From the NCBI GenBank assembly GCA_021234155.1, contig JAJEKV010000025.1, positions 8,834,330-8,898,329 on the forward strand: a stretch of DNA of 64,000 bases. Reading direction: 5' to 3'. The position numbers were made by a program, and so were the translations under genes. Each line of letters begins with the position of its first letter. Positions within the stretch are counted from its first letter, which is position 1. Below are positions 34,272-55,081 of the stretch, one piece after another. The DNA is from Isoetes taiwanensis (taxonomy: Eukaryota > Streptophyta > Lycopodiopsida > Isoetales > Isoetaceae). The notes under the pieces were generated by a model. That model was not told the origin of the DNA, searched no databases, and saw nothing but the letters and a program-made list of their open reading frames with translations.

Positions 34272-34276
34272 GATTA

Positions 34277-36193: not shown

Positions 36194-38393
36194 TTTTGAG
36201 GTCCTACCGAGATCTCTCCCCGGTAGAGATTACTCGAATGGCTTTTCACAATCAAGGTCCACCTTTTCAGATTGAAGTATGTATTCCTATTCCTTTACCA
36301 ATCTTTGATGGCTCAAAAGATCCAGAGAATTTTTGGTACAATTTGAAAAATACTATGATGAGTATGGTTTAAAAAAAGGGGAAAAATGTGTAGTCTTTGG
36401 AAAATGTATGGAAAGTGAAGCTGAAGGATGGTTCTTGTTTGAGCAGAATTATGGTTGTGGAGCATCGAGTGGTCAGTTTTGATCCATAATTTTGTCCAAA
36501 GATTTAGCAAGCAATTACATGATGAGATGTTGATTGAGCAACTATATACTTTGAGAATAGAAGAGAAGGAAAGTGTACCCCATTATGTGGAGAGAGTGTG
36601 CTTATATATTCTTAGGTGCAAGAAGAGAAACTTGGAGCTACCAGCCAGAGCCACCTAATCCATTTTTTTTGTGCGAGGTCTCAAGCCATGTTTTCCAGTT
36701 TACAAGAAGATACGTAAGCTCCAAGCAAAAGGTACTTTTGATTCCATTTATGAAGCTTTTGAGAAGTCTGTTGAAGTATATTATCTCCTAAAGTATTTGG
36801 ATGAGAGGTGTAGCATTCCAAAATATTTTCTTGATCATGCCAAATCCAAAAATAAAGTTCCAAACAAGAAGTTTGGAGTTTGAGAAGGTAAATTTGCATA
36901 CTTCTACTATGCTTGAGGAATGTTGCCATGTTCTTGCATGTGAAAATGAGAAATTACAGCAGTTAGAGCATGTTAACTATCATAATAGTCCAAAACTTGA
37001 ATGCTTTGATGATGGTTCACGAAATCAGCCATGACAGTCAAGATTTGAATGTTTTGGTTATGTAACACATGAGGCCAGCCATGAAACCTTGGAGTATGTA
37101 CCTTTATCAGCAAGCTTGAAGTCCAATGAGGTAAATATAATCACATCCCACATGATTGAGGAGTGTGAGCAAGTTCTTTTATATGGAATTGATGAGTTTG
37201 AGCATTGTCATGAGAAAGAGAGTGATAGATGCATGATCAGCCCTGAGTTTGAGAGTTTTCATACATGTGAAGCATTTTTAGAATATGGTGAACCATTATT
37301 ATGTGAATTAGAAGTGGAAAGCATTGATACTTTAGCATTTGAGCACTCTAAAGTTATGTTACATGCTCTTGAATTTAGTGACAGTCATGACAGAGCCCTC
37401 TTTATGAGAATTTCAGATTTGAGACATGTATACCAGCTGAAAATACAGGTGAGCATGATCTTTACATGCCTCAAAAGGAGAAATTTGTTTTTTTTGATGA
37501 TTTGGCACCACATTGTGAGCTAGAATTGCTAATTTTTGATGATTTGATGAATGAAGTGTGCATAGAATGGTTCAGACCTAAGTTTCAGTGTTGTGACGGT
37601 CAAAGAAGTCTAAGAATCAAAGAAAACTACTTCCTTGCATGTTTGAGCATGGAAGTGTAAAAGGGTTGAGTAAATTTGAGCATGACTATGTGATAGAAGA
37701 TGGGATATTGGACATGAGCAGCACTTTATCTCAGTATAATGCAGCAGCCAAAGATGTTCTTACAGGTTTGCTTGCACCATTTGGGATCAATAAGTTAGCT
37801 GGGATATGTCAGTTTAGCAAGTTCTATTACATTACATCAGATTTGCCACATTGGTATGCTAGTGCAGTCATATTTGAGCAGCTTGTTGGATTGTGGCTTG
37901 TTCTTTGGTCACACTTTTTGCTGTTATTACATGCTTTGAGCATTCTCCTATTTGGAAGATGCTTACTTGATAGAATTGGAGTTGGTTGAAGCATGCATCC
38001 ATCCAAAAATGTAGTCCAAGGCAAGGCATTGCTCCTTGACATTACATTAGCATGTTTATGGTTGAGAAGACCAGCCATTTTTCTTGTTTTGGCGAGTTCA
38101 CATCACACTCACACACTTCTCACTTCATTTGCACACTCACATTCCATATCTTCCATCCCATACTTAGCATGCACTTCACTTCTCCACTTACTCCATCATC
38201 CACATTTCGTTCACATTACATCTCCACCACACTCATACTCATTCCATCATACATACACTCCACCTTCATTTTCACACATCTCTTCTATCACATTTTCACT
38301 CAGAAGCATTGGTTTATGTTGAAGACCCCTCTGGATTGCTCATTTAGATATCCTATGGCTGAGGGGACCAGCCATTTTCTTGTTTTGGCGAGA
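36194..38393 (+). mobile_element. Internal region of the LTR element, gag remnant only
   Basis: Traces of a gag-type protein occur on the plus strand in the first half and several charged, Glu/His/Cys-rich stretches in the second half. A short direct repeat (AGACCAGCCATTTTTCTTG near 38069, GGACCAGCCATTTTCTTG near 38366) sits close to the 3' LTR. No pol region is present. Fossil, broken in several places. Confidence 0.75.
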
Positions 38394-40315
38394 TGTTGCC
38401 CCCAAAGGGCAACATACATACTAATCATTGGTTTATGTTTGAAGATTAGGTCAAAGTTTGGAAGACCTTGATAGGGGACATTGATGTTGAAGTCAAATTT
38501 GGGAAAAGAGAACTTATTTTGAAGTCAAACTATGCACTAGAAAACTCTGGGTTGACTAAAGATTGGAAGGCATTTTTGAAGATTGGAAGTTCAAAGTTTG
38601 GAAGACCCCATGGTATTTGATCCCATTCCTAGCCATTCTCACTCATTTTTATTCTTGCCCTTGAAATTTTCTAGCCTTCTTTTTTCTATATCTATACTCC
38701 CTTTTGTTCACTCTTGCATACCCTATCATATCTTGCCTAATTTTTCTTTCCCAATACATCTTTTTTTTTTTACTATATTTGCCAAGGTGATCATCCTAAA
38801 TATTTCTTTATTCACATTCTCCTTTCATTTCATTACCATTAAGATATTTCTCTATCATCACCCATGCACATCCTTTTGAGTTCCCACCATTCTATTCTTT
38901 CTTACTCCATACTCTCTTACTCTCTTGGATCCCATTTGTTTTCTTCTTCTTACCCCATGGTGACCATTGCTTAAGGTATTTGTGCCACTCATTATAGCCC
39001 CAAATGGACTTCAAACTTGAAAAATCACATGGCTATAGTTCCTCATGGTCCAAATTGCTAGATTTCCATATTATAATTGAATTATCCCTAAAAGACCTTG
39101 TCAGAAATTTCTAAAATGCCAAAATACACGGGCATATTCGGGCATATACTCCTCAAAATACGCAAACCCTATCGTGAGTTTTGCCAAAAAATACTGGTCT
39201 TCAACCCTAGGATTTGGAAATCTGCTTATATCCTGCGCCGAATTGGATCCTACCAGCTCAGAAACCTATCTATTCTTGGATTCCCGCTCATTATCTACCC
39301 AACAAGCCTAAATTTAAGACCTAATATTCTGGAACCGTTAATACTAAGAATAAATACATGGGAAACATCTACAGAAGTTTTCAAGGCCCAGAAGTATTGA
39401 AGGCGTCCATTACCATGGCGGTGCATGATTTCTTGATGATCTCCAAGCTATCTCGAGCATTCCTTAGCCATTGGCAATGATTCATGGCTAATATTCTTCC
39501 ATAAATTATTTTCCCAAGATTTTTAACTGAGTTTATTGCTTGAATAGCATGAACACAGTATTATTATGATTATTTGATTGATACATCAATGAAAATCCCT
39601 GTCAAGTTTGAAAATTTGATCTTTCATTATTTCGCAACTTTTGCCACCAAAACATTGTTACAGAAGCAGTTTTCGTGATTCAAACTACTATTTTATCTTT
39701 TGCACATGCTTTTAGGCTCTATTCAGACCTGTGACAATTGAAATCATGCAAAAATACCTTATAGAACTCAAGATACAAAAATTTGCTTGCTGTTTTTCTG
39801 TGACAGTTCACTGACAGAATTTTTGATCGACTTTGAATCCTTTTTTCTCCCTCATACCAGTTCCAAATCAAGCCAAGTTTTTTTCCACATGTACCTACAA
39901 CTGTTTTCTCATAGTCATTTCAAGAATCATACAAAAAGGATCAGTAAATCTCGAGATATCATCATTTGAGTGTGCAGACCTCATTTTATCTCAGGGAAGT
40001 GCACTGGCCAGATTTTCTGTCAACTTTGAACCCGATTTTCTCAGCCATTCCAGATCCAAATTGAGTCAAGTTTTTTTTCCACATATCACCACAACTTTTT
40101 TCTGATTTCTCCTTCAAAAATCATTTGAAAAGGATCAGTACATCTCGAGATATTCATGTCTGAGTGCAACTGCCTTATTTTTCTTCAGGGATCCTAAAAG
40201 TAATTGATCTTTTCTTGCAAATTTTGCACCAAGATTGGTTGCCTTAAGCAACCTGGAGGTCCTAACCATGTAGGCTCCACTGAGGTTGGTCCAGGTGCCA
40301 GGTTTTGGATCAACA
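38394..40315 (+). repeat. 3' LTR
   Basis: Mirrors 34277-36193 from TGTTGCCCCC to GGATCAACA and is followed by the target-site duplication GATTA. Confidence 0.92.
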
Positions 40316-40320
40316 GATTA

Positions 40321-40786
40321 CTCCAGTCGATGCCTACAAAATAAGTTACCCTTTACAATCTAAACAAAGGACCATAAACATCAAGAAGAAACAACCACTC
40401 ACAACCAAATCAGAAAGGGCAGAAAAGTGGTTGCTCTTGTTCTCTTATTGATATCTCCTTGTTCCAAAATTAGACATATAAATTGCATAGCTATCTCACC
40501 ATTGCATTGCCATCTGCCCTTGCGCAACCAATTTGCGATGCACTAGGTATCGTGCACCCGAATGCAGACAATTTAACCTGGAATAGAGGCAGGGAGGCCA
40601 TATAGATTTCAAGATAAGTCAGGTCGAGTTATGGCAGAACAAAATACCTAAAAATCAAGCAAAAAAACAATTAAATCGAAATCACAAGAATGATATACTG
40701 ACCTGGGCATCAGCTTTGCATCTAGTTGGGTCGTGATCCAGCAGAAAGAGCAGAAAAATGGTTGCTCTTATTCTTTTATTGATATG
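40321..40786. repeat. Relics related to the 54.6 kb flank
   Basis: Positions 40445-40540 match 54627-54730 (GATATCTCCTTGTTCC, GCATAGCTATCT.ACCATTGC, CCATCTGCCCTTGCGCAACC). A short direct repeat, GCAGAAAA.TGGTTGCTCTT with TTATTGATAT, occurs at about 40420-40456 and 40748-40785. The area therefore belongs to the same duplicated locus as 49.6-54.7 kb. Confidence 0.6.
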
Positions 40787-41232
40787 TGAATTGCTACATA
40801 AATTGCTGACACTAGATTGAATGTTAATACAACTCCACAACTACAAATACATGAATTGCTACATAAATTGCTGACACGAGGTTGGACGTTAATAGTGGGT
40901 TCAACCCCACAGGTTTAGAACTGAAGAAATATTCGCGACGGCCTGCGATAAATTTCTTATATCTTTAAAACATGTCTTTCCAACGCCCTAAATGCAAATT
41001 CAAATTTCAAGAAAAGCATTTCAAAAAGTTGTTGGGAAAGTTAATTGCAATAAACAGAGAAAATTATGTTCTTGGTATATTCTAAACCTAGCATCGTGCA
41101 CTCCAGCATGGTGCTTTTTTCAAACAAATGGATGAATAAGGTAATTGAAGTTTCTATAAGTACTAAGAATTTACCTTAACTTGCCCTTGGATTTAGCCGA
41201 TTTAGTTGCATCTGAGTTTGCGCCAAAAGAAA

Positions 41233-41267
41233 CGACATTAGGGCGGATTTGGGGTCTGAAAATGGCC
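41233..41267 (+). repeat. Left terminal inverted repeat, 35 bp
   Basis: Starts CGACATTAGGGCGGATTTGG and ends GAAAATGGCC. It is the exact reverse complement of 49533-49567. Beyond it the two ends share only weak similarity (TTCCACGTC occurs in both). Confidence 0.9.
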
Positions 41268-41386
41268 CTTATCTTGGGCTAAAGATTTCCACGTCGATTC
41301 GCGGGACCAATCAGGTTTCGCCTTTTTACTTTAAAGTCGAGATACTTGGCGGTGTAGAAGGATGAGCAGGCTTACTTGGCATCCAC

Positions 41387-41769
41387 ATGGCGTATTTTCA
41401 TAGGGGATGCCTGCGCTTTTATTGCAACCATTTTAATGGCCCGTATTTTTTCTGGAGTCGCCACGCCCAAAATAATGGTGACTTTGACCGGCCCCTCTTG
41501 TCCCGTCACCAACTCCCTTTGTCAAATTTTGGCCAAACTTACGTACTATCACTCCGAAGCGCTTCTACGTGCATCCTCTCGCCTTCACTCCTCATCCGCA
41601 ATCTATGTCTCCTGTAATTTTCGTGTTCTTGCCCCATTTACGTAACTCCCAAGGTCAAGAAGTGGGAGGTTTTGTCTCAATAGGTTCAGGTGAGTATGCC
41701 GCCATCAACGAGGGCGAGCATAGAGTTAGCGACAAAGGCGATCGACGTGCGGACACATTGGATAGGTAG
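41387..41769 (+). pseudogene. Coding-like region 1 of the insertion, unknown
   Basis: First coding-like stretch inside the left end, plus strand. The early part is rich in Cys, His and aromatic residues, the later part in acidic and basic residues. No family was recognised. It ends about 150 bases before the first palindrome pair, as expected for a gene in this element. Part of a fossil; not intact. Confidence 0.3.
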
Positions 41770-41918
41770 GATAAAAGAGTTCAAGTTGAATTCTAGCGGC
41801 GGAAAGTGGAAAGTATAACAATACGACATGCATATACCCCTTCCGATATGGCCAAAGAGCTAATCTCCACCAAAAACGGCTTCCCAAAATTGCCCGCAAA
41901 TGGTAACCACCTTAAGCG

Positions 41919-41989
41919 GATCACACGACGCTTGAAGCTAGCTGCCGACTACTTAAGCTGCGCGTGAGATAGTTTCGCGTCGTGTGATC
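41919..41989. promoter_or_regulatory. Intergenic palindrome H1
   Basis: Perfect 13 bp arms GATCACACGACGC (41919-41931) and GCGTCGTGTGATC (41977-41989) around 45 bases. It lies between coding-like regions 1 and 2. Confidence 0.8.
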
Positions 41990-41992
41990 TTC

Positions 41993-42905
41993 TTATCTTT
42001 TCATTTCTTTTCGTTGACCGTGTTTACAAACAAATTTATTGTGCGGGTTTATGTTTATCGGGACGCCGTGGATGTCATTCCGGCCGAAAGTATTAGTAGT
42101 GTACTTGTCGGTATCACATAGACATCGGAATTGTCCTTTTTCAAGGTATGGATGCCGTGACCTTTGCGGGGTATAGGCATCCGGTTTCTGGGACATGATT
42201 ATAACGTAAAGGTCGAAACCGAAGCTTGAGGCCGGTTGAATTGCCCCCTTTAAGTGAACTTTGTAAGCCACGGACTAATGAGAACAATGTAATTGCAATG
42301 AAGAAATGCATGGGTGACGAGGTGCAAGCGGGAATGTCAAAACGGAGGCGTGAGGATGAGTTTCAAAATCTTCACAATGTTTGAGGTATTTGCTAACATA
42401 TTCGGATGGCGGGAAGTTGAAAAGCTCGAAGACATATCGTGCTTTCTCCCCCCACGATTTTGTGGATGGCTTATTTTTGGTTCCGACTGGGATGTTCGAT
42501 TCCACTAATCATCCAGGTCAACTAACAGAGGTCCGCGTAGTTAAGTCCTCCTTTAAGTTCAGATACTTTCTTCCAAAACAATATTTATCGTTAATTGTCA
42601 ACTAGAACGAAGGAAACAGAAAAAAGAGAGGTCGCACAACTTTTTGGGAGCCATTTGAGGACCATAAATGCATTTTCTCGTCGGTGGATATTCGAGTATG
42701 GAGAGGGAGGAAGTCATTTATACGCCACCATGGAAAGTTTTTAATGGCCATTATCGAGCTAAGAGTGCTAATGGAGACAGAGGAGATTGGCCGACGACTT
42801 CCATTATTTTATTGATGGCATTAGGGTTGGTTACGTGCAAGAGGGAAATGTAAAGTTTAGTGAGTTCGCGATCAACAAGAAATTGTCTATCGGCTAGCGC
42901 TTTGA
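41993..42905 (+). pseudogene. Coding-like region 2 of the insertion, unknown
   Basis: Protein-like stretches on the plus strand occur directly after the right arm of H1 and continue to the TAG near 42896, before an AT-rich gap with GGGTTCCG repeats. Composition suggests one or two small soluble proteins with basic patches. I recognise no family. Not intact. Confidence 0.3.
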
Positions 42906-43110
42906 ATCTCGGTTTTTTATTTGTGTTTTTGTCTCGATGTTTTTAGGGTTCCGTATTTTGTCCGATATTTTTTAGGGTTCCGCACAATTATTTAAAAACG
43001 TTACCATCATATTTTACTTTAACTTCGTTTTTTACTATTTATCTCTTTGCCGCTTGTCTATTTTTGTCGGTGTTCAGTAGGTATAAAGCGCCATCCGGCC
43101 GAGAAGCCAT

Positions 43111-43975
43111 GGCAAGAACTAAGCAACCGCAAGGATCCATCCGTGGTGTAAGGCCGTGTGATTACATTAGTCCGCCTTCTTCATCTCGACTAAGTCTCGA
43201 TAGAGATTCTCCTCCTCCGACCATGCCTAACGTAAGACCCGGAAAAGAAACCGCGATGATGACGGGCGGGAGAAGCAGCTCCGGAGTAAGTAGGGAGGTG
43301 CACTCGGTTCGGAGACAGAGGATGAAAATGTAGAGAGACCGGGCAGCAGTAATATGACGCCGGATTAATTATTGGGCAGCCGCCTCTTCTTGCTCTTTCC
43401 TCGCCCTCCTTCCTCCCTGTGGAGGTGCCGTGACCTTCAAATCAAAGGAGGAGGCCCAACGCCGAAAAGGGAAGGCGACCAGGAATGTGAGGAGACGGGC
43501 CGGAAGAGTCGGCCGGAACTCTACTTGGCAGATCGGGGGAGGAGGCGGCCGGAAGAGTCGGGCCGAGCAAATGTGCTCCAAATGCCGGGTGGGTGAGGGT
43601 AGTGGCCGGAAGCGGAAGACTAAGCCCGGCATTAAAAGAGCTTCAGCGAGATTAAGAAGTATCGGAAGAATCGAGATGGTCATTCCGCGTCTCCCATTTG
43701 CCGGGCTCGTGAGAGAGATTCGCAAGAGTGTGGTGCGATACATCATACGATTCATGAATTCAAGCAAGCGCCTTAAATGCTCTTCAAATGGCTTCGGGCG
43801 GTTGGTGTCTGGGTCTGTTCGAGGGACTCGCACTTGCGGCAATACATGCCAAGCGGTGATATCATGCCCAAGGACATGCGCCTGCGTCTTACGCGATAAG
43901 GGATCCCGAAAGTACTATGGTCAAAATTTTAATTTGAATACAACAAGAAGAAAGACCCCCGAAAAAAGGCCGTGA
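43111..43975 (+). pseudogene. Histone H3-like coding region
   Basis: The start MARTKQ at 43111 is the universal histone H3 N-terminus. Downstream, within about 43610-43910, are the H3 fold landmarks in the right order: a KPG step before the alpha-N helix, LPFAGLVREI (H3: LPFQRLVREI), LFEG then AAIHAKR (H3: LFEDTNLCAIHAKR) and IMPKDMRLRL (H3: IMPKDIQLARRI). Between tail and fold lies a long, Lys/Arg/Gly-rich stretch absent from ordinary H3. Divergence from plant H3, normally almost invariant, is extreme. It could be a captured and decayed host H3 or centromeric H3, or a virus-type histone. The coding region is broken. Flanked downstream by palindrome H2 at 44110. Confidence 0.65.
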
Positions 43976-44109
43976 AGTGCCTTTGTGTTTTTTTTCATAT
44001 GTATAATATTTCTTAATGTAATGGCTTTATAAGCTTAATCTCTTAGTCCATTTCTTTCTTAGAAGCCTAGCTTTGCACTTTGTATTTTTTTTTTAATGTT
44101 ATCACGTGA

Positions 44110-44178
44110 GGATCACACGACGCACAGCAAGCATTGTGCTTTTTTGTTGCACATAGTAGTCTTCGCGTCGTGTGATCC
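44110..44178. promoter_or_regulatory. Intergenic palindrome H2
   Basis: Perfect 14 bp arms GGATCACACGACGC (44110-44123) and GCGTCGTGTGATCC (44165-44178) around 41 bases, immediately followed by the CCCTAA tract. Confidence 0.85.
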
Positions 44179-44180
44179 AA

Positions 44181-44210
44181 CCCTAACCCTAACCCTAACC
44201 CTAACCCTAA
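44181..44210. repeat. Interstitial (CCCTAA)5
   Basis: Five exact CCCTAA hexamers. The usual plant telomere unit is the heptamer CCCTAAA, so this is the hexamer type. It starts two bases after the palindrome H2 arm and ends just before a possible start codon at 44213. It is far from any chromosome end within this window. Confidence 0.9.
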
Positions 44211-44212
44211 AA

Positions 44213-45730
44213 TGTACGGACAAATCTCCCCACAACGGTGCGTCCCCTTTCATAATCGACAGCGGCTACTTGAGTTCAAAAGTGGCGGCGCTTTTACCGC
44301 TCCTAAACATCTTCTTGTTTTCGCCGTTTGTTTCGGGCCATGGATTGTTATGTGAAGTTCTGGAATGGTATGCATCCGCCCCTCATGACAACGAGGAAGG
44401 CGCCGATCGCGATTTATCCGTTCTATTGCAAAGGAGTTGGACATCATGGCAAAGCGATGGCGAAGCTTGGATGCTATCGCGAGGTTGCTTTAGCTTTCAC
44501 CCGGACCGCTTGGTCTCGCCAAGACGCCCTTTTGCGGATGTCCCGGCTCGTGGATTCCAAAACCAGCTCTAGAGGAGGCGGCTTCCCATTTGCAAACAGG
44601 GAAGATGTTTTTCAAGAATGCCGCGCGAACGGCTCCCTCCCGGCCAAGGCCCTTGTGCTTAAGAAGGTATCTTATTTCTCTTTGCCGCTTGCATTTGCTA
44701 GTTATTGCATTCTCCTTTCGCCAAACCGAAGATACAATGGAAACAATGAAATCTTTAAGCCAAGGGGGTCAGTTATGTGTGATGATGCTGACTATGACGT
44801 AGAAATGGAGATAGATCTACAAGAAGAAGAGCAAGAATGTAGGAGTTTTAGCTTCGACGCACTGGCCTTGGGTGAACCAGAGGAGGGAGATGATTCTGAA
44901 GGTGATGAGGATGGGGATGAGGATGAAAAGAAGTTGTCTGACATAACGCCAATTTTAGTGGAAGGCAAAGAATACTTATTGCTAAGTGATATACTGAGGA
45001 ACCCGTCTTTGTTACTTAATGTGTGCTAGGGAAGACGAGCTTATCAATTACCTTGGCCGAATGGGTAAACTTAGGCCTAGATTTTGAAGAGGATTTGGAC
45101 AAAGAGATGTTTGAAGTGTCTAATTATACAGGCAATGCTATAAAGCTTAAAGAAGCCTATGAGAGGAATTTGGAGTCTCGATTTGCTCAAGATGAGGCGT
45201 AATCTACCAACGGAAGAAGAATTCCAAGCGTCTCCGTGCAAAGCCGCCAACGGGGATCTCTGAGTTTGGCGGGCCCTTGATCAATCGCAAAAAGATAAGC
45301 CCGGTAGATGAGGATAAATGTGAAGAAGATAATCTTGAGGGTTCTTATTTGTGGGAAGTAGATGATTTTTCTTGCCGACATGCACGGGGGCAGGGAAAGA
45401 TTGAAGGACTCTACATTGTTACGATATATCTCAAGATTCGTTAATGGGGAGATAATCGTCTTCGTGAGAACTTTCAGTCCAAAAGGTCTTGAGTTTGTCT
45501 ATTACATTCGTGCATTATGCATGTTGGGGAACCATTCCCAATTGGCATCAAACAACTGAAAGGGTGATAGCAATTCGGGGGATGTTGTGTTACAATATTT
45601 TGACGACCAAGCGGTCTCAGGCTGAGCAATATGTTAAATTTTTTAGTCGCGGCTTGACTCACCCAAGGTTGGAAGTGGGGTCGATAACATGGAAGTCGTT
45701 GCCTTGTTGGATCGGTCGGGGGGATTGAAA
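44213..45730 (+). pseudogene. Coding-like region 4: acidic protein(s), weak SKP1-like part
   Basis: Protein-like stretches on the plus strand fill this interval. The first part contains a segment weakly like the SKP1/BTB fold (PFVSGHGLLCEVLEWYASAP beside SKP1 PNVTxKILxKVIEYC). The match is short and uncertain. The middle, about 44776-45029, is an open stretch with a dense Asp/Glu run (EEGDDSEGDEDGDEDEKK) resembling nuclear or chromatin-associated acidic domains. Later parts are basic then mixed. There may be more than one gene. AATAAAAATTAT near 45830 could be the polyadenylation signal. Not intact. Confidence 0.35.
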
Positions 45731-45904
45731 GAGCATGAAATTGTACGAAGCTTGAGAAATTGGAAGTTATATGTTTTCCAACTTGTATCGGTAAAATTAT
45801 TTATGTACGATTGTCCTTCCGAAATTCTAATAAAAATTATTTTATTTGTATTTATTCACATCACTTGAAATACATCGTCCGATTTTTACGTCATATCTAG
45901 GTTT

Positions 45905-46000
45905 TTCGCCGCGTGTGATATCTATCTCAAGAAATGAAATATTATTGGAAAAAGACAATTAATTTATTTATTCCTCACACGGCCCGAGAAGCAACTTCGT
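45905..46000. promoter_or_regulatory. Intergenic motif pair before region 5
   Basis: GCCGCGTGTGATAT near 45908 and CTCACACGGCCC near 45974 form a short inverted pair. A further TTCGTGTGACTCA at about 45996-46008 sits directly before the TATA box. This is a less regular version of the other intergenic palindromes. Confidence 0.5.
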
Positions 46001-46010
46001 GTGACTCATG

Positions 46011-46026
46011 TTATAAATAGAAGACC
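46011..46026 (+). promoter_or_regulatory. TATA box of region 5
   Basis: TTATAAATAGAAGACC, preceded by CGTGTGACTCA. The identical 16 bases, again after CGTGTGACTCA, occur at 46911-46926. The first ATG of the downstream frame with a good product is at 46108, about 95 bases on, a normal plant-like distance. Confidence 0.65.
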
Positions 46027-46107
46027 GATGTCCACGCTGACCTCCGACGCCTTCCGCCTTTACGCTCATCTTCTACTTCGGCTTCCGCCTTCCACCTTCT
46101 ACGCTCC

Positions 46108-46492
46108 GATGGCATCATCATCTTCCTCTAGCAAGCGACCACGCCAAGATAGCACTCCCCAGCCCCCAGAGCTGCCCGTGGACATCACCCTTGCAGTGGT
46201 GATGAAGAGATTCAAGGAGATCCATGATGAAAACAACCGTCTCGTCGCCGAGAACAATGAGGCGGTCGACAGATTAGCCTTCACGAGGGAGCTGCTGCAC
46301 GAGCGAGACGTTGAGCTCGTGGAAACATTCGCCATGTACCAAGAGGCGACGAGCCGCAGGGCCGAGGCAGTTGAAACTGCTCACATGATTTCGCAGGCCT
46401 TAGAAGATATGGAGAAGAAGCTCCGAGTCGCTGCGGAGGATGAGAACGCCAACTTTTACGGCCCAATTTTGCGGGACATGAAAATCAGCTAG
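46108..46492 (+). CDS. Coiled-coil protein of the insertion, ORF looks whole
   Basis: An open frame of 127 codons from the ATG at 46108 (MASSSSSSKRPRQDSTPQPP). The frame is also open upstream to 46001, but the TATA box at 46011 favours the later start. A Ser-rich, basic N-terminus (SSSKRPR, a possible nuclear localisation signal) is followed by a long amphipathic region (MKRFKEIHDENNRLVAEN, LHERDVELVETFAMYQE, ALEDMEKKLRVAAEDEN) predicted to be coiled coil. No family was recognised; superficially it resembles plant transposon-associated coiled-coil proteins. Its 3' end is followed by TTAAAATATCACACGACGC, the left arm of palindrome H3. It is the best preserved coding region of the element. Confidence 0.5.
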
Positions 46493-46611
46493 AGGATCAT
46501 GAAGATCCCTAGCCGTTGTATCTATCTATTTTTTGCTTCAAAGAAAAGTTTTCTCTATTTTTTGCTTCTATCTATCCTGTTGTTCCAATGTATGTTCTGT
46601 TTTATTAAAAT

Positions 46612-46676
46612 ATCACACGACGCGAAATGCCTTGCTTGCAATTAGGTAGCAATCAATGGATTTCGCGTCGTGTGAT
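46612..46676. promoter_or_regulatory. Intergenic palindrome H3
   Basis: Perfect 17 bp arms ATCACACGACGCGAAAT (46612-46628) and ATTTCGCGTCGTGTGAT (46660-46676) around 31 bases. The loop adds a weaker inner stem (TTGC..GCAA). It is the longest and best of the set and follows the coiled-coil gene. Confidence 0.88.
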
Positions 46677-46792
46677 CTCCATGCCGTTCTATTTTGCTTC
46701 AATGAGAAGTTCTATCTTTAGTTATGTATCAGTAAAATTACTTATGTATAGATTGTATCACCGAAATTATCAATAAAAATTATCACACGAGC

Positions 46793-46888
46793 TTTCTCTG
46801 GAAGAAAAGGCGAAGAAGTAACTTGGTCCTTTTCGCCGAGAAGTAGCGATCGATTTTCCGGCGCGACGGCATCCTTCGCGTCGTGTGA
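46793..46888. promoter_or_regulatory. Intergenic palindrome H4
   Basis: Arms TCACACGA (46793-46800) and TCGTGTGA (46881-46888), with TTCGCG just before the right arm. AATAAAAATTA lies directly before the left arm and the second TATA box lies 22 bases after the right arm. Confidence 0.65.
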
Positions 46889-46910
46889 CTCAAGCTACTA
46901 CGAAATCCCT

Positions 46911-46926
46911 GTTATAAATAGAAGAC
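46911..46926 (+). promoter_or_regulatory. Second copy of the TATA box
   Basis: TTATAAATAGAAGACC, identical to 46011-46026. The gene it would drive is missing: what follows from 46956 is the internal copy of the element's right-end sequence. Confidence 0.6.
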
Positions 46927-46955
46927 CTTCTATCTTGCCTATCTTTCCATACGCA

Positions 46956-47453
46956 ACGTGCATATGGAAATCGAAAAGTCCATTCTCCTACAATCCATGC
47001 TTTTATACAAAAGCAAATTCAAAATTCGAATTGTAGGGGGGCGGGAAGCCTGTATTGGGATGGCGTAAAAGATCCGATTCTACGAACTTTTAAAGGCGCA
47101 ATCGCGGCGCCTCAAAACGAAAGTCTAATACAAAGCTTCAACCTACACATTCAAATTTTGAAATGTAGAAGGCGGGAATGGACTCTAAATGAAAATAGGG
47201 CAAGACAAGAATCGGTGATCGCATGATTGGTATCGACAAACCAAGAGACAATCATGAGTTGCCGGTATGCTATAATGCAAGTGGCTTTTTAGAAGCGCCA
47301 CGTGTTGCGTCAATCTGTCGCGACAACAAGAGAATTAAATACATATGGCGCCATAGATATGCGATTCCCCTTATTAGGAGAATATTCCAAGCAAATCGGC
47401 CGGAAAAAAAGGGCGGAAATATGGACGTGGAATGGTCGATAGGAGGCCATTTT
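46956..47453. repeat. Internal copy of the right subterminal sequence
   Basis: Matches 49062-49543 in the same orientation, from GCAACGTGCATATGGAAATC through CATGAGTTGCCGGTATGCTA to GATAGGAGGCCATTTT, which is the inner edge of the terminal inverted repeat. Indels separate the copies. It suggests an older or second right end inside the element, truncated before the terminal repeat proper. Confidence 0.85.
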
Positions 47454-47562
47454 AGTTCATAAAACATAATATAACTTGGAATGATAGATATTTTATATGC
47501 AAATGGGAGACTATTGACGAGGGACTTGTGTTTAATTTTAATTTGACAACAAATAAGAAAGT

Positions 47563-47631
47563 GGATCACACGATCTTAATTTAGTGTGTTCCATTTTTTG
47601 TTGCATATGTACTATTCGCTTGGTGTGATCC
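47563..47631. promoter_or_regulatory. Intergenic palindrome H5
   Basis: Arms GGATCACAC (47563-47571) and GTGTGATCC (47623-47631) around 51 bases. It is the most diverged full member of the set. An open frame starts 20 bases after the right arm. Confidence 0.65.
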
Positions 47632-47650
47632 TTGAAAAATAATATGCTCT

Positions 47651-47923
47651 TTGAAAGGGATAATGACTTATGTACTTAAGAGTGGTAACACATGTCTGAT
47701 AAAAAAAAAGTTAGGTATTCAAATGGAATTAGAAGCAAAAACTTTTTACATTCAAAATTTTTATGGCCGTATGGCTTTACATCATTTTGTAAATTTAAAT
47801 GCCCGGGAGGCTTCAACTATTCACAACAAAAAAGCCGGAGGCTGCAAGTCATATGGTAAGAAGTCGGAGGCAAGCTCGACTAAGAACAAGGAAAAAAAAA
47901 AAATAAGAGGTGCTCTGCCCTAA
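47651..47923 (+). CDS. Small basic protein of the insertion, unknown
   Basis: An uninterrupted frame of 90 codons directly after palindrome H5. The C-terminal third is strongly basic (KKAGGCKSYGKKSEASSTKN then KEKKKK-like), suggesting nucleic-acid binding. The remainder has no recognised motif. ATG at 47651 or 47723 could start it. AT-rich codon use differs from region 5. It may be real or a remnant. Confidence 0.3.
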   Translation: MKGIMTYVLKSGNTCLIKKKLGIQMELEAKTFYIQNFYGRMALHHFVNLNAREASTIHNKKAGGCKSYGKKSEASSTKNKEKKKIRGALP

Positions 47924-48024
47924 CAAATTTCATTCATCCGCTTCACCATCCGCAAAAAAAAAAATAAGAAATAACCGTTAGTTGAATGCTTAAGAAAAGA
48001 AAGAAAACATGCATGTACCATGAA

Positions 48025-48362
48025 CTAACGCCATGAGCTCCCGAAGTCGGCGGATTCGTCTTCAACTTCTTCATCTTCTTCATCATCTTGACTTCTTCTC
48101 AGTCGGTCCTGAATACTCATTTTCTGAAAAATCTCCTATCCGGCCTTCAAGAACACTTGTGATGAACTCACGCCTCGAAATTTCCTCGATTCCTCATTCT
48201 CCGATTCCTCGTCAAAGGAATCAGAGGAATCGAGGAATCGAGAGGCATTCGTGAGCAAGAACCATGGGTGGCCCGGAGGGCTGCGGAGGGAACACCTCTT
48301 CCGGTAGTAATAGGCCTCTTGGAGGACACCTCAGAAGCTCTTAAAGTAGCTGATCTCTTCAT
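48025..48362 (-). pseudogene. Coding-like region on the minus strand, charged
   Basis: The only coding-like region of the insertion on the minus strand. Its beginning near 48362 is Ser/Arg/Thr-rich (MKRSATLRASEVSSKRPITT) and its end near 48025 is very acidic (DDEEDEEVEDESADFGSSWR). No family was recognised. Not intact. Confidence 0.3.
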
Positions 48363-48552
48363 GGCGATGGACTAGAGAAATTGGGGAGGAGGATCTAGCG
48401 AAGATTGGGCGGAGATTGGGGAGAATGGGCCAATCTAGGCTGGAATAGATATAATTTGGATTAGACGTGAAAATCGTGAAAGCAATGATTAGTATTCAGT
48501 CCTATCAACCATCATTACATGCCATTATGTGCATATCTCAAATTTGAGCCAT

Positions 48553-48662
48553 ATCTAATATCTTCCTTTTTTAACCTTATACCTAAATATCCAATATCTT
48601 CCTTTTTTTAACCTTATTCCTAAATATCCAATATCTTCCTTTTTTAACCTTATTTCCTAAAC
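48553..48662. repeat. 37 bp tandem repeat, three copies
   Basis: AATATCTTCCTTTTTTAACC followed by TTAT.CCTAAATATCC occurs three times in a row with small changes in the T-run length. Confidence 0.8.
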
Positions 48663-48837
48663 CTATATGATTTGAGTTTAACCCGAAAATGAACACCGAT
48701 ATAATTGAATTTAACATACTATTTAATACCAAGATGCTACGCCACACTATGTCGATAATTGGGATTTAAAAAACACTCCAAACCCTCCTCGAGAAAACCA
48801 CGTAAGTGCCGACCTCACTTGTGTTTAAGTTTAATTT

Positions 48838-49045
48838 GACAACAAGCAACTTCCATATCGTGTAGATCGCGACGGCTTGAAATCAAGGTGTGGTATTTTT
48901 ATGCCCCAACACAATTAAGCCCGTGTGAGGCTAACGTCCGGTACAACAAGCAACTTCCATATGTGTAGATCGCGACGGCTTGAAATCAAGGTGTGGTATT
49001 TTTATGCCCCAACACAATTCGCCGTGTGAGTCTAACGTCCGATAC
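48838..49045. repeat. About 105 bp tandem duplication
   Basis: Two adjacent copies of ACAACAAGCAACTTCCATAT ... TGTAGATCGCGACGGCTTGA ... CCCAACACAATT ... CGTGTGAG.CTAACGTCCG. Each ends in a CGTGTGAG motif related to the intergenic palindromes. Confidence 0.85.
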
Positions 49046-49061
49046 TAACCGTTTTTGAAAT

Positions 49062-49543
49062 TTGCAACGTGCATATGGAAATCGAAAAGTCCATTCTCCT
49101 ACAATCCATGCTTTTATACATTAAGCAAATTCAAATTTCGAATTGTAGGGGCGGGAAGCCTGTATTAGGATGAAGTGAAGATCGGTTAAAGTAGCGCACT
49201 TGACGCCTCTCGAAATGAAAGTCCGATGCGATACAAAGCTTCAACCTACACATTCAAATTTTGAAATGTAGAAGGCGTGACGCCAAGACGCTTATCAAGA
49301 GACACCGTCATGAGTTGCCGGTATGCTATAATGCAAGTGGCATTTTAGAAGCGCCACGTGTTGCATCAGTCCGTCTGACAACCAACAGAATTAAATACAT
49401 ATGGCGCCATGAATGTGCAATCCCCCTTATTCCGGAAGAATATTCCAAGCAAATCTGTAATTATGAGAGTTTGGTATCCTAGGTGGCATGGGAAAAAGGG
49501 AGCGGAAATATGACGTGGAATGGCTGATAGGAGGCCATTTTCA
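49062..49543. repeat. Right subterminal sequence
   Basis: The 480 bases inside the right terminal inverted repeat, duplicated at 46956-47453. No coding region was recognised. Confidence 0.85.
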
Positions 49544-49567
49544 GACCCCAAATCCGCCCTAATGTCG
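49533..49567 (-). repeat. Right terminal inverted repeat, 35 bp
   Basis: Ends CCAAATCCGCCCTAATGTCG and is the exact reverse complement of 41233-41267. Unchanged ends imply a fairly recent insertion or conservation of one terminus by the other. Confidence 0.9.
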
Positions 49568-49624
49568 ATTGACAAAGCCAATACTTCTTGCTCAATGCCA
49601 AGGTTTTTGTTCTAGCTATTTTTG

Positions 49625-50047
49625 CAGGATGTGCTTCCTGATCAAAGCCCACAAGCAATATCAGTTCAGAAAGAAGACCGAAACATTACAGAATATCTTA
49701 CTAAAAAAATAGCACAGATCCGGGCATAGAACGAATACCCTACTTGAAGAATTGAAGGTAAACCTGAATGGCGCTCAGTGGAAGAAGCTCTATTCTATCT
49801 TTACTTACAAATTTAACCATGTAAACAGACAATCGAATGGATCTGGAGTGGCCGTGAAAGAAAGCAAGAACAACTCATCATCAAAAGAGCGGAAGCAAGA
49901 AGCAATTTTAGTGAGGGCATGTTACTTACCGCTGGCGGTTCCACCACAGGAAGAAATGAGACTAGTTGGATCAAATCTGAAACCTGAATTAGCTGCACCA
50001 TGGGAACGGCTAGGAGGCCTTGAGGTTTCAAAATCTCCCTAAAGGTA
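49625..50047 (+). pseudogene. Exon-like segments of an unknown gene, copy A
   Basis: A strong acceptor (TTTTTGTTCTAGCTATTTTTGCAG ends near 49627) precedes a stretch reading DVLPDQSPQAISVQKEDRNI then TEYLTKKIAQIRA, closed by TTGAAG|GTAAAC near 49756. The downstream stretch (KESKNNSSSKERKQEAIL, then NLKPELAAPWERLGG) ends at AAAG|GTAAGC near 50044. These look like spliced exons of a plant gene I do not recognise, and frame continuity is not maintained. The same sequence is in copy B at 52323-52744, nearly unchanged. Confidence 0.35.
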
Positions 50048-51748
50048 AGCAACCCTGTTATTTCTTCCTATTTGCTGTTAAACTTCAGTGGCAAATGATT
50101 AATATTGATTAATATTGACGGCGAAATAAATTGGTGCAATTCCATAGATTCCAAAAATGCAATGCCTTATAGAATATTGTAAATTACTTGTTGTCTCTGT
50201 CCACATAGTATTCAATTTTTAGTATAATCCTCACTCCCATCAAACTTAGGACTTGCTCTTAAAGTTCACGGACTTGAGTCCGTGACATGCCCCACATGGT
50301 TACTCAATTTTTAATATAATCCTCACTCCCATCAAATTTAAGACGCTCTTAAAGTTCACAGACTTGAGTCGGTGACATGCCCCACTTAGACTTCATACTA
50401 CAACTCAAGGTACATGTGAACTAGTTTTTTTTCCTTTTGTTAAAAATAGCTTTATATGGTTGTAAATTTGACTTCATGGTTTAAGCTTGAATGCTTTTCA
50501 CAGACTCAAGTCCGTCATTTGATCTTTTATACATGCACGCTTATTATCTATATTACTACTTTAGCACTATATGGTTCACAAATTTGTGTTATACAGACTT
50601 AGGTCTGGGGCTCAAGCTTAGGGTCCAATTGCTCCATATCGTCACAAATCTGAATATGTATAGAGCTTAGCGGACTCTAAAAGATGCTTTTGTACTATAG
50701 TATGGTATTGCTTCTATGGGCTTCTATCTCTTCTGCCACTTCTCTTAAAACTCATTCAATCCATTTTCATGGACGTGTCAAGCATGCTAGGTGAAGTAGT
50801 CCAATAATGGTTATAAGATATTTATTTCCTCTATTTGTTTTGAGATTATGGCCTAACCTTTATAAAGAGTTCATGAGCTTAATTTTGTAACCCTAGATAC
50901 ATGCCCATAGAGTCAATATTCCGATGACATGGTGGCTAGTTACTGCATATGAGTTGCAAGCTTGAGGAGCATCCAGTCAAAGGGACAAATTTACATTTAA
51001 GATCGTCTCTCATGTAGGAGCTCTCATCTCCAAACCTTAGGACGTGGATGGGTTAAACCTGGCTTCAATATTATGGTCCCTTCTCCATGGAAATTGCAAT
51101 CTCTAATGCTTTTTTTGGCATAAAGGAGGAAGAAGATCAATGGTCGCAGACGACTTTATTGATAGAAAATACAAAACTAGGTGCAAACCTAAGTGTCGAG
51201 AAATGGTCATCGATTACTTGAAACTTAGGTTAGAAAACTGAATCCATGCAGTCTGGCTTTAAGAAGTCCTTGAGATTTGTGACTCATAGTTCTAACTTGC
51301 TATAAGTTTGATGGGACTTCGAGGATTGTGGCTCATGGTCCTAACCTGCTATAAGTTTTGATGTAGCTAGAAACCTAGAGGTTTGTGGCTCATAGAAAAC
51401 TGCCCTTAGTCCAACACACTATAGGTGATGTTGCTAATCCATCTCATGATGATGCATTAATCCACCATTTAGCTTCTTTAAATGGAGAAACAAATCCTAG
51501 CATGTGGACTCGTAGATGATTATGAGCAAGATGTTCCTTTTGAAGCTTTGCATCTAACAACTTCTTTTAACTCTTATACTCCCACTCCCACCCCCAAAAA
51601 AAAAAAAAAGGGGACCCTTAAATATGACGTTATTAGTGTCTTTTATGGTTCGTTGAATCTCTGTTAAGCATATGACATATAACAGACTAAGAGTGTCTGG
51701 TATGCGTCTCCCCATCTAATATGACAATGCATTTATCTTGTTTTCTAA
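50048..51748. other. Non-coding part of copy A, short palindromes
   Basis: A 115 bp tandem pair (about 50217-50390) carries the palindrome TCACGGACTTGAGTCCGTGA (50266-50285) and a damaged second copy. A further half, TTCACAGACTCAAGTCCGTC, lies near 50498. Otherwise no gene is seen. Confidence 0.6.
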
Positions 51749-51834
51749 TGTCAATACAATCAACTTAAAACTAGTTACTTAAATTTAAAATGAGAAGTGA
51801 GATTCTCTCAATTTAATTGCATAAGGCTTTACGT

Positions 51835-54545
51835 GAATTGCTACATAAATTGCTGACACTAGATTGAATGTTAATACAACTCCACAACTACAAATACATG
51901 AATTGCTACATAAATTGCTGACACGAGGTTGGACGTTAATAGTGGGTTCAACCCCACAGGTTTAGAACTGAAGAAATGTTCGCGACGGCCTGCGATAAAT
52001 TTCTTGTATCTTTAAAACATGTCTTTCCAATGCCCTAAATGCATTTCAAAAAGTTGTTGGGAAAGTTAATTGCAATAAACAGAGAAAATTATGTTCTTGG
52101 TCTATTCTAAACCTAGCATCGTGCACTCCAGCATGGTGCTTTTTTCAAACAAATGGACGAATAAGGTAATTGAAGTTTCTATAAGTACTAAGAATTTACC
52201 TTAACTTGCCCTTGGATTTAGCCGATTTAGTTGCATCTGAGTTTGCGCCAAAAGAAACGATCTATTGACAAAGCCAATACTTCTTGCTCAATGCCAAGGT
52301 TTTTGTTCTAGCTATTTTTGCAGGATGTGCTTCCTGATCAAAGCCCACAAGCAATATCAGTTCAGAAAGAAGACCGAAACATTACAGAATATCTTACTCA
52401 AAAAAATAGCACAGATCCGGGCATAGAACGAATACCATACTTGAAGAATTGAAGGTAAACCTGAATGGCGCTCAGTGGAAGAAGCTCTATTCTATCTTTA
52501 CTTACAAATTTAACCATGTAAACAGACAATCGAATGGATCTGGAGTGGCCGTGAAAGAAAGCAAGAACAACTCATCATCAAAAGAGCGGAAGCAAGAAGC
52601 AATTTTAGTGAGGGCATGTTACTTACCGCTGGCGGTTCCACCACAGGAGGAAATGAGACTAGTTGCATCAAATCTGAAACCTGAATTAGCCGCACCATGG
52701 GAACGGCTAGGAGGCCTTGAGGTTTCAAAATCTCCCTAAAGGTAAGCAACCCTGTTATTTCTTCCTATTTGCTGTTAAACTTCAGTGGCAAATGACTAAT
52801 ATTGATTAATATTGACGGCGAAATAAATTGGTGCAATTCCATAGATTCCAAAAATGCAATGCCTTATAGAATATTGTAAATTAGTTGTTGTCTCTGTCCA
52901 CATAGTATTCAATTTTTAGTATAATCCTCACTCCCATCAAACTTAGGACTTGCTCTTAAAGTTCACGGACTTGAGTTTGTGACATGCCCCACATGGTTAC
53001 TCAATTTTTAATATAATCCTCACTCCCATCAAATTTAAGATGCTCTTAAAGTTCACGGACTTGAGTCCGTGACATGCCCCACTTAGACTTCATACTACAA
53101 CTCAAGGTACATGTGAACTAGTTTTTTTTTCCTTTTGTTACAAATAGCTTTATAGGGTTGTAAACTTGACTTCATGGTTTAAGCTTGAATGCTTTTCACG
53201 GACTCAAGTCCGTCATTTGATCTTTTATACATGCACGCGTGCTTATTATCTATATTACTACTTTAGCACTATATGGTTCACAAATTTGTGTTATACAGAC
53301 TTAGGTCTGGGGCTCAAGCATAGGGTCCAATTGCTCCATATCGTCACAAATCTGAATATGTATAGAGCTTAGCGGACTCTAAAAGATGCTTTTGTACTAT
53401 AGTATGGTATTGCTTCTATGGGCTTCTATCTCTTCTGCCACTTCTCTTAAAACTCATTCAATCCATTTTCATGGACGTGTCAAGCATGCTAGGTGAAGTA
53501 GTCCAATAATGGTTATAAGATATTTATTTCCTCTATTTGTTTTGAGATTATGGCCTAACTTTTATAAAGAGTTCATGAGCTTAATTTTGTAACTCTAGAT
53601 ACATGCCCATGGAGTCAATATTCCGATGACATGGTGGCTAGTTACTGCATATGAGTTGCAAGCTTGAGGAGCATCCAATCAAAGGGACAAATTTACATTT
53701 AAGATCGTCTCTCATGTAGGAGCTCTCATCTCCAAACCTTACGACGTGGATGGGGTAAACCTGGCTTCAATATTATGGTCCCTTCTCCATGGAAATTGCA
53801 ATCTCTAATGCTTTTTTTGGCATAAAGGAGGAAGAAGTTGGAGAGGATCAATGGTCGCAGACGACTTTATTGATAGAAAAGACAAAACTAGGTGCAAACC
53901 TAAGTGTCGAGAAATGGCCATCGATTACTTGAAACTTAGGTTAGAAAACTGAATCCATGTAGTCTGGCTTTAAGAAGTCCTTGAGATTTGTGACTCATAG
54001 TTCTAACTTGCTATAAGTTTGATGGGACTTCGAGGATTGTGGCTCATGGTCCTAACCTGCTATAAGTTTTGATGTAGCTAGAAACCTAGAGGTTTGTGGC
54101 TCATAGAAAACTGCCCTTAGTCCAACACATTATAGGTTTTGATGTTGCTAATCCATCTCATGATGATGCATTAATCCACCATTTAGCTTCTTTAAATGGA
54201 GAAACAAATCCTAGCATGTGGAAAGATGTATTTGGTCAAATTATGAATCAAGTGTTAAAAGACAATTAACATCAATGTTTGTACTGTAATAGTAATTCAT
54301 AATATATACTTTGTAAACTCGTAGATGATTATGAGCAAGATGTTCCTTTTGAAGCTTTGCATCTAACAACTCCTTTTAACTCTTATACTCCCCCTCCCCA
54401 AAAAAAGGGGACCCATAAATATGACGTTATTAGTGTCTTTTATGGTTCATTGAATCTCTGTTAAGCATATGACATATAACAGACTAAGAGTGTCTGGTAT
54501 GCGTCTCCCCCATCTAATATGACAATGCATTTATCTTGTTTTCTA
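51835..54545. repeat. Tandem duplication copy B, uninterrupted
   Basis: Matches copy A from GTGAATTGCTACATAAATTG to ATTTATCTTGTTTTCTA. It lacks the 8.3 kb insertion and has CGATCT at the equivalent place (52258-52263). A 95-base stretch at about 54222-54316 is present only in B. Confidence 0.88.
52323..52744 (+). pseudogene. Exon-like segments of an unknown gene, copy B
   Basis: The same acceptor, exon-like stretches and donor sites as at 49625-50047, with only a few base changes, for example GGATCA to GCATCA at about 52666. Low divergence dates the duplication as recent. Function unknown. Confidence 0.35.
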
Positions 54546-55081
54546 AATATGCTTATGTCGTACTTATGGCAGGCAACAAAAACAACTACTTTTCCATGTC
54601 TGATTATGATTATGTAGATATAAGGCTTGATATCTCCTTGTTCCGGAATTACCAAAGCTACACAGACATATAAACTGCATAGCTATCTTACCATTGCATA
54701 GCCATCTGCCCTTGCGCAACCAATTTGTGAGTGACCGTACATCGACAGCCATAAACAAATGAGGGAAAACAATTCAGGCTTTATCACGCACTAATGCCAA
54801 ATTGATAAAGCAATGTCAACCCAATCTAACAATATAGCATCTTTTCCCATTTCATAAGAACCTCTATTTTGCTGCAAATGATCAGATCTGGAAGATCTAG
54901 AAGAGCCTGCTAGAGGCAACCCTTTGCCTTCCAGATTGAATGAAGAAGGCATGAGGTTTTCAGAGCTATTTCGCTGGGCCAAAACCGACATTGCTTCCTA
55001 TGCACAAAACCCCCGTTAACATATTATATATGCACTTAGAGTCATCTAAATACATAAGTCTCGGAAAGCGCCAATGCAGTT
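54546..55081 (-). other. Possible minus-strand exons, unrecognised
   Basis: The minus strand has an open stretch at 54991-54791 (SVLAQRNSSENLMPSSFNLE, then a Ser/Arg-rich run SSRSSRSDH) preceded by an acceptor-like CATAGGAAG. A second open stretch lies at 54758-54564. They read like plant exons but I cannot name the gene. 54627-54730 is shared with 40445-40540. Confidence 0.3.

Follow-up and report, generated by a model that had tools for sequence, protein, structure and literature searches.

The stretch of DNA analysed here, referred to as the window, comprises 64,000 nucleotides of the lycophyte Isoetes taiwanensis (GenBank assembly GCA_021234155.1, contig JAJEKV010000025.1, positions 8,834,330 to 8,898,329). 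It holds, at 41236–49564, an element of 8.3 kb bounded by terminal inverted repeats (TIRs), which carries a histone H3-like sequence, other open reading frames (ORFs) and hairpin palindromes, and parts of a pectinesterase and of a WRKY gene are found in the window flanks. From the letters alone, the original prediction had suggested here either a new class of gene-carrying TIR element or a fossil of a large DNA virus or its satellite.

The ends of the element are inverted without mismatch over 35 bp (41233–41267 and 49533–49567), and 97% complementary over 38 nt when 41230–41267 is compared with 49533–49570. An inner 18-mer of the end, allowing up to three mismatches, has two matches in the window, both being the ends themselves, where 0.03 would be expected. 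The predicted 35-bp ends are thus perfect and beyond chance, but the repeat of the family is 32 bp long: since most copies elsewhere in the genome start three bases further in than the predicted 35-bp end, at its fourth base, the family end is placed at 41236, and the outer CGA (41233–41235) is host flank lying outside the left TIR. The left repeat therefore spans 41236–41267 (plus strand), and the right one, which is perfect, 49533–49564 (minus strand). The outermost sequence of the ends is CATTAGGG, the first bases being CATTA and not CACTA.

The element stands in one of two tandem copies of host sequence. As had been predicted, the other one, copy B (51830–54546), is a clean empty counterpart, uninterrupted at the junction 52260/52261. 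Copy A reads GAAACGA, then the element, then TCGATTGAC, and copy B reads GAAACGATCTATTGAC at the same site, with no base duplicated, none lost and a single substitution adjoining the junction. This precise empty site, of the kind expected for a TIR transposon, concerns one locus, the comparison having been made at the window's own locus only. The flanks of copies A and B differ at 26 of 1,941 and 6 of 431 aligned bases, and because these differences are few the insertion would be recent or, less likely, copy B would recently have lost the element. Two young tandem duplications neighbour each other here, 34276–36193 with 38393–40315 (11 of 1,909 aligned bases differ) and 40783–51748 with 51830–54546 (26 of 1,941).

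The family in the genome and its integration

The genome searched comprised 1,658,258,908 bases in 1,110 contigs. The exact 32-mer end was found at 564 places (286 forward and 278 reverse, the window's included), whereas the reversed control gave none. The ends are therefore multi-copy, as expected for a mobile element and opposite to the single occurrence which, according to the original prediction, would have pointed to a chance rearrangement if host-gene best hits for every coding region had come with it. Such a non-mobile rearrangement might be imagined from the position of the locus amid young tandem duplications, but 564 exact ends against zero for the control rule it out, leaving it a negligible probability. 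For the left 128 bp, 1,121 first-look candidates yielded 40 scored places, the window's own among them, and the right end was 100% identical over 165–168 bp at all 40 scored places (own included; 1,715 candidates). The element end was absent from the prokaryote genomes searched.

Facing plus/minus end pairs within 30 kb were counted by hand among the 100 places listed out of the 564. Twenty were found, 15 of them spanning 13.2–13.9 kb, and the remaining five 5.4, 15.5, 18.5, 24.3 and 29.8 kb; the shortest and the longest are C907:3778086-3783456 and C801:183264-213021. Two full-length copies, read in pieces, measure 13,548 bp (C930) and 13,889 bp (C1089). The initial 5.7 kb of the window element (41236–46940, plus strand; 88–91% in the assembly) form a block common to the longer copies. 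Of 20 copies fetched for the likeness of their left end, 17 have this block contiguous, while it is interrupted in L017 and broken in L011 and L029. As to odd copies, L011 is rearranged and L014 has repeated internal blocks. Terminal inverted repeats shared by so many copies are what is expected of a TIR DNA transposon, and the best reading of the family is that of a large DNA transposon amplified recently to high copy. No description of it was seen among the papers listed in the literature searches, which did not extend to Dfam, to Repbase or to the supplements of the Isoetes paper, and its novelty is accordingly provisional.

Target sites were read at 19 end pairs. In a first set of ten, C1059 was dropped, as its left end was not at the predicted place, while the nine others, the window included, had both ends perfect; a second set contributed ten more. 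No target-site duplication (TSD) was seen in any of the 19 (9/9 and 10/10 free of it), which covers both the 3-bp TSD of CACTA/EnSpm and the 5-bp TSD of RAG1/Transib (each 0/19) and agrees with the TSD-free habit of Spy (PHIS superfamily). Matches across the junction were 0–1 bp in the first nine pairs and 0–2 bp in the further ten, reaching at least 1 bp in 8 of 19 and 2 bp in 2 of 19, which is near chance. No evident target motif or bias appeared in 17 of the 20 left flanks (three were omitted, their left end having more than one mismatch), and insertion within AAATTT, as known from Spy, was not seen at the 19 pairs. Cut-and-paste transposons are usually recognised and classified by, among other signs, their TSD, and a TSD-free, high-copy plant family could be missed or misfiled; it would also allow one to study how blunt integration by a DDE enzyme is possible.

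The lack of a TSD would also arise, with no special transposase, if a linear extrachromosomal (invertron-like) or excised linear form were joined into breaks by host end-joining, and both the 19 TSD-free pairs and the absence of an evident target motif fit this explanation. End-joining, however, normally trims ends, and the outermost element bases were intact in 19 of 19 pairs, although this count is biased, intact ends having been the means of finding every pair, and says nothing of end-base loss elsewhere. Moreover, no DNA polymerase or terminal-protein family was met in the stretches scanned with Pfam, namely the window copy in six frames, 5.7–10 kb of L012 on both strands and, on the minus strand, 6.5–10 kb of L030 and 1–1200 of L031. 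Insertion of a linear form is considered quite unlikely.

Internal deletion and the probable transposase gene

Compared with the full-length copy C930, the window copy misses about 5.4 kb (element positions ~5661–11044 of C930), its two parts being joined at 46940/46953 with the junction at 46941–46952. On the minus strand of the missing stretch lies a conserved gene, the probable transposase gene, with about 850 codons, and the best reading of the window copy is that of an internally deleted, non-autonomous derivative. The prediction that no mobility gene is present therefore holds for the window copy, as judged by six-frame Pfam scans, but probably not for the family, whose full-length copies have the conserved gene. 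That the window copy might hide the decayed remains of a known transposase was also considered and rejected. A frameshift-tolerant scan with stretches of such enzymes scored mostly below the best of four control stretches (element/control: CACTA-1 54/58, CACTA-2 41/67, hAT 46/37, MULE 36/46, PIF 44/42); hAT and PIF lie slightly above, and no Pfam model backs either.

A piece of 1,064 bases of the minus-strand gene (L030:8880-9943) is 94–98% identical at 39 other scored places, with one partial piece at 95% (705 candidates); for comparison, the H3-like region reaches 86–92% at 39 other scored places. In C1101, the gene consists of 317 and 565 codons (P0002 and P0001) in one frame, with a single in-frame stop between them. 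The protein search of the genome gave 85 matches from 77 scored of 3,770 candidates and revealed a sister lineage of five loci at 53–54% identity, in which the matched stretch is stop-free and the open frames measure 589–911 aa. At two of these loci the ORF is 874 and 897 aa long (L054:367-2991 and L055:375-3068).

In three aligned sequences, D412, D517, E778, C538, C541, H753 and H758 (L054 numbering) are invariant. The spacing in P0001 is 118 residues from Asp to Asp and 267 from Asp to Glu, with the motifs CxxC and HxxxxH. RAG1 has D600, D708, E962, C727, C730, H937 and H942, and the paired His stand 25 and 20 residues before the Glu both in L054 and in RAG1. A PDB search with P0001, a single sequence, returned RAG1 entries only, with weak scores (E = 0.51 and 0.88) and a 41-residue match around the Glu. 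RAG1 was not found by the profiles A3 and A4 at E up to 10, the matches of A3 being confined to the N-terminal part and A4 giving none, and no Pfam or NCBIfam model scored above its cut-off with the minus-strand gene, the best sub-threshold model being DUF3370 in the N-terminal part (E = 0.0037, 16.6 bits against a cut-off of 25). Judging from its conservation and residue layout, the protein is probably a DDE transposase outside the Pfam families; because the RAG1 match is weak, the profiles negative and no model above cut-off, it was not filed as a relative of either RAG1 or CACTA.

On this evidence, we assign a probability of about 0.78 to the element being an internally deleted, non-autonomous copy of a 13.5-kb high-copy TIR DNA transposon which inserts without TSD, the window copy probably having been mobilised in trans by a DDE transposase. 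In the mechanism proposed, the minus-strand DDE (RNase H-like) transposase would bind the 32-bp ends and join them to a target cut without stagger; lacking a stagger, repair would copy no target bases and no TSD would be formed. The gene product would act on ends both in cis and in trans, the window copy being mobilised in the latter way. With less certainty, the H3-like protein and the hairpins might be maintained for a function, in chromatin or in the expression of the element's genes, and would then not be dead cargo.

Several points weigh against this reading. The transposase assignment rests on conservation and motif layout, with no Pfam or NCBIfam model reaching its cut-off, and its sole structural lead is the 41-residue RAG1 match at E = 0.51, both profiles being negative. 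The whole gene is uninterrupted in no main-family copy read, C1101 having its one in-frame stop. TSD-free integration is also possible through end-joining of a linear form, and every end pair was found through intact ends. The minus-strand protein is a candidate for the one that moves the element.

As regards known systems, the element resembles CACTA/EnSpm in being a TIR element with CATTA ends, one base away from CACTA, with more than one gene, with repeated subterminal sequence and with a probable DDE transposase having CxxC and paired His, since Asp/Asp/Glu with this layout also occurs in CACTA. Were it a divergent CACTA (CMC) element, the 3-bp TSD described for this superfamily (PMC8978399) would be expected, of which the 19 pairs have none. 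The element is further set apart by the histone-like sequence and the hairpin units, by the absence of a CACTA transposase model in the Pfam scans and, as far as the window copy was scanned, by the scores of the two CACTA stretches, both below their best controls (54 against 58 and 41 against 67). A CACTA placement is unlikely.

The Asp-Asp-Glu distances and the placement of CxxC and HxxxxH come near those of RAG1, with the weak 41-residue match around the Glu besides, but the profiles miss RAG1, the ends are others and the 5-bp TSD described for RAG-like elements (PMC9435367) was not seen here. Spy, of the PHIS group, is likewise a DNA transposon with TIRs and no TSD, described as inserting within AAATTT (PMC4482050); here this insertion site was not seen, the Pfam scans gave no PHIS-type transposase model, and those autonomous PHIS groups for which a size was seen average 3.5–4.8 kb against 13.5 kb. 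On the best reading, the element is placed in none of the superfamilies tested. The predicted gene-carrying TIR element is strongly supported by the 564 ends, the 13.5-kb members, the 19 TSD-free pairs and the conserved gene outside Pfam, while the new class is only possible: that the family is a new superfamily, with a DDE transposase outside known families, an unstaggered target cut, its own diverged H3 gene, hairpin-flanked cassettes and a very recent spread to hundreds of lycophyte copies, is a tentative proposal with somewhat less than even chances.

The H3-like sequence, other reading frames and hairpins

Two weak Pfam hits in adjacent frames led to the identification of a histone H3-like sequence at 43496–43909 (plus strand), which in a frameshift-tolerant alignment matches H3 residues 3–135 with about 47% identity (56/120) and has 6 frameshifts and 1 stop in the assembled window copy. 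The score was 184 with H3.1, for which 40 shuffles gave at most 48; in a scan of the whole element, H3 scored 188 against 55 for the best in a control stretch. The similarity extends over the histone fold, as expected of the H3 family, and one piece of 32 residues matched H3 in the PDB at E = 7.8e-05. Another piece matched centromeric H3 only, at E = 0.13 and above, but a centromeric identity was rejected on its score of 98 against 184 for canonical H3. Other histones scored at control level in the element, and a match to a conotoxin family of Pfam (18.8 bits, cut-off 25), whose frame overlaps the H3-like sequence, was set aside as chance.

The H3-like sequence is present in 22 of 22 copies tested (partial in L029), with 3–14 frameshifts per copy. 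The core indels in 20 copies amount to 73 distinct events, and since 32 of these are single and none is common to more than nine copies, many of the frameshifts may be assembly errors; real decay of the gene may stand alongside. If the reading of this gene is true, a transposon keeping its own histone H3 gene would be a rare direct link of a mobile element to chromatin.

A frameshifted H3-like sequence would also suit a non-autonomous element of the Pack type, in which the genes are fragments taken passively from the host, plant TIR elements being described as capturing genes (PMC13317346) and a fungal hAT element as having captured H3 (PMC6710886). The window copy does lack the conserved gene, yet the long copies have the H3-like region and the remaining genes as well, which are not one derivative's own, and the full-length copies hold their own conserved gene, which makes passive capture quite unlikely. 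In the fungal case, described in Dothideomycetes, a hAT element spread histone H3 and was inactivated by RIP (PMC6710886). The likeness lies in a DNA transposon taking an H3-like sequence to hundreds of copies, and the difference in that the fungal one is a RIP-inactivated hAT, while here a plant element of another kind carries a strongly diverged H3-like sequence.

Among the other reading frames, an ORF of 233 codons at 44328–45029 (plus strand) has a TTG start and an acidic C-terminal half, and family searches assigned it to no family. An intact ORF of 127 codons at 46109–46492 (plus strand), charged and coiled-coil-like, recurs at 39 other scored places at 91–99% (840 first-look candidates), and an ORF with a similar start lies in the full-length copy C930 (L030:7683-8159). 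In a set of 5.8 billion proteins, no match was found for the 127-aa ORF, for a 240-aa ORF or for a portion of the H3-like ORF. A TATAAATA box stands about 90 bp upstream of the 127-codon ORF (46012–46019, plus strand), and a second one, in the same context GTTATAAATAGAAGACC, at 46913–46920 (plus strand). ORFs of 60 aa or more number 20 in the window element, where simulation gives 10.5 on average, and its longest, of 229 aa, exceeds the simulated 95% point of 173; most frames are interrupted. The seven or so coding-like regions that had been proposed were not confirmed one by one. No tRNA or Rfam features were found.

The repeated intergenic palindromes had been rightly noticed. The arm TCGCGTCGTGTGATC, with up to three mismatches, occurs nine times, always within the element, where 0.32 would be expected in the window, and it forms hairpin units of about 70 bp between genes: U1 (41919–41989), U2 (44111–44177), U3 (46611–46677), the degenerate U4 (47566–47633) and the longer U5 (46782–46890), directly before the second TATA box. 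The arms were found again in 6 of 6 other copies scanned, five to nine times in each. Directly after U2, at 44179–44210, lies a telomere-like run of AACCCT in 5.3 copies. VANDAL elements, which are described as multi-gene and encoding VANC anti-silencing proteins (PMC5735166), likewise are plant transposons with a short motif repeated in non-coding regions; the motifs here are hairpin palindromes, and the Pfam scans gave no Mutator-type family. Any anti-silencing role here would be speculation.

Histones occur in some giant viruses. This, together with genes on both strands, intergenic hairpins and terminal inverted repeats, could be read as the fossil of a large DNA virus, or as its satellite, that entered the genome in one or several insertions. 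No viral Pfam family was found in the stretches scanned, neither a capsid nor a packaging ATPase nor other core genes, as a nucleocytovirus-type origin would have required. IMG/VR, in addition, held no relatives of three element proteins and no exact match of the end, its lone 17-mer match to the palindrome arm being isolated in its contig piece. Moreover, 564 exact ends with one main length class are not what this origin suggests, and it is considered highly improbable.

In the right part of the element, the subterminal region is doubled, the inner copy (46953–47453, plus strand) being 72% identical to the outer one (49064–49541, plus strand), which continues into the right TIR; the doubling is also present in C930 and C1089. 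Tandem repeats lie in the same part at 48839–49045 (two of 103 bp) and 48551–48661 (three of 37 bp).

Base composition and probable assembly error

The composition of the element, which had been described as unlike that of the flanks, is indeed so in the sequence as it stands: its GC content of 43.9% is reached by none of 78 outside windows of equal length, its CpG observed/expected ratio is 1.06, a value that in 156 outside windows does not rise above 0.71, and it shows a deficit of CAG/CTG with an excess of CpG and CCG. Much of this, however, looks like assembly error. In 20 copies (L010–L029), sites with a CAG or CTG majority showed a change in 55% (of 580) and 61% (of 460) of the cells, respectively, mostly to CCG/CGG or through a deletion. 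Altered CTG became CCG most often (62), then TTG (35), and altered CAG became CGG (43), CG (33) or CGA (26), deamination-type C-to-T products being a minority. ATG, TAT and AAT were altered in 3–4% and CG-bearing triplets in 33–50%, so that the instability is strongest at CAG/CTG yet extends beyond. Per base, departures amounted to 1.5% (20/1,360) in C/G-free 7-mers against 6.4% (4,560/71,240) overall.

In host duplications, CAG/CTG had changed in 8% (5/63) and 12.5% (10/80) of cases, CG-bearing triplets in 18% and 28%, and the rest in 4.4% and 3.1%. A comparison of two element copies gave 49% (17/35) and 68% (21/31) at CAG/CTG, 30% and 45% at CG, and 15% and 18% elsewhere. Methylation at CAG/CTG is described as requiring CMT3 only, and at CCG also MET1 (PMC5221884), and the assembly as having a size of 1.66 Gb, with 204 scaffolds besides 909 unplaced contigs, and as built on R9.4.1 nanopore reads with racon and pilon polishing (PMC8566536). 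The frameshifts and the odd composition look largely like nanopore assembly error, and systematic miscalls at methylated CAG/CTG, in repeats beyond the reach of short-read polishing, would fit this; among the literature passages found, none proves exactly this error. Miscalls of this kind would account for the shortage of CAG/CTG and for much of the surplus of CpG and CCG, and the notion of high CpG as a sign of foreign or unmethylated DNA was dropped after the triplet-change analyses. Claims on frameshifts or composition in repeats of this assembly thus need care, dense CAG/CTG changes in a high-copy repeat of a nanopore-based assembly being a practical trap which can mimic pseudogenes and foreign composition.

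Elsewhere in the window, an inverted pair of about 300 bp with 97.7% identity (20069–20367 and 20579–20875, some 200 bp apart) could be a MITE pair or a foldback element.

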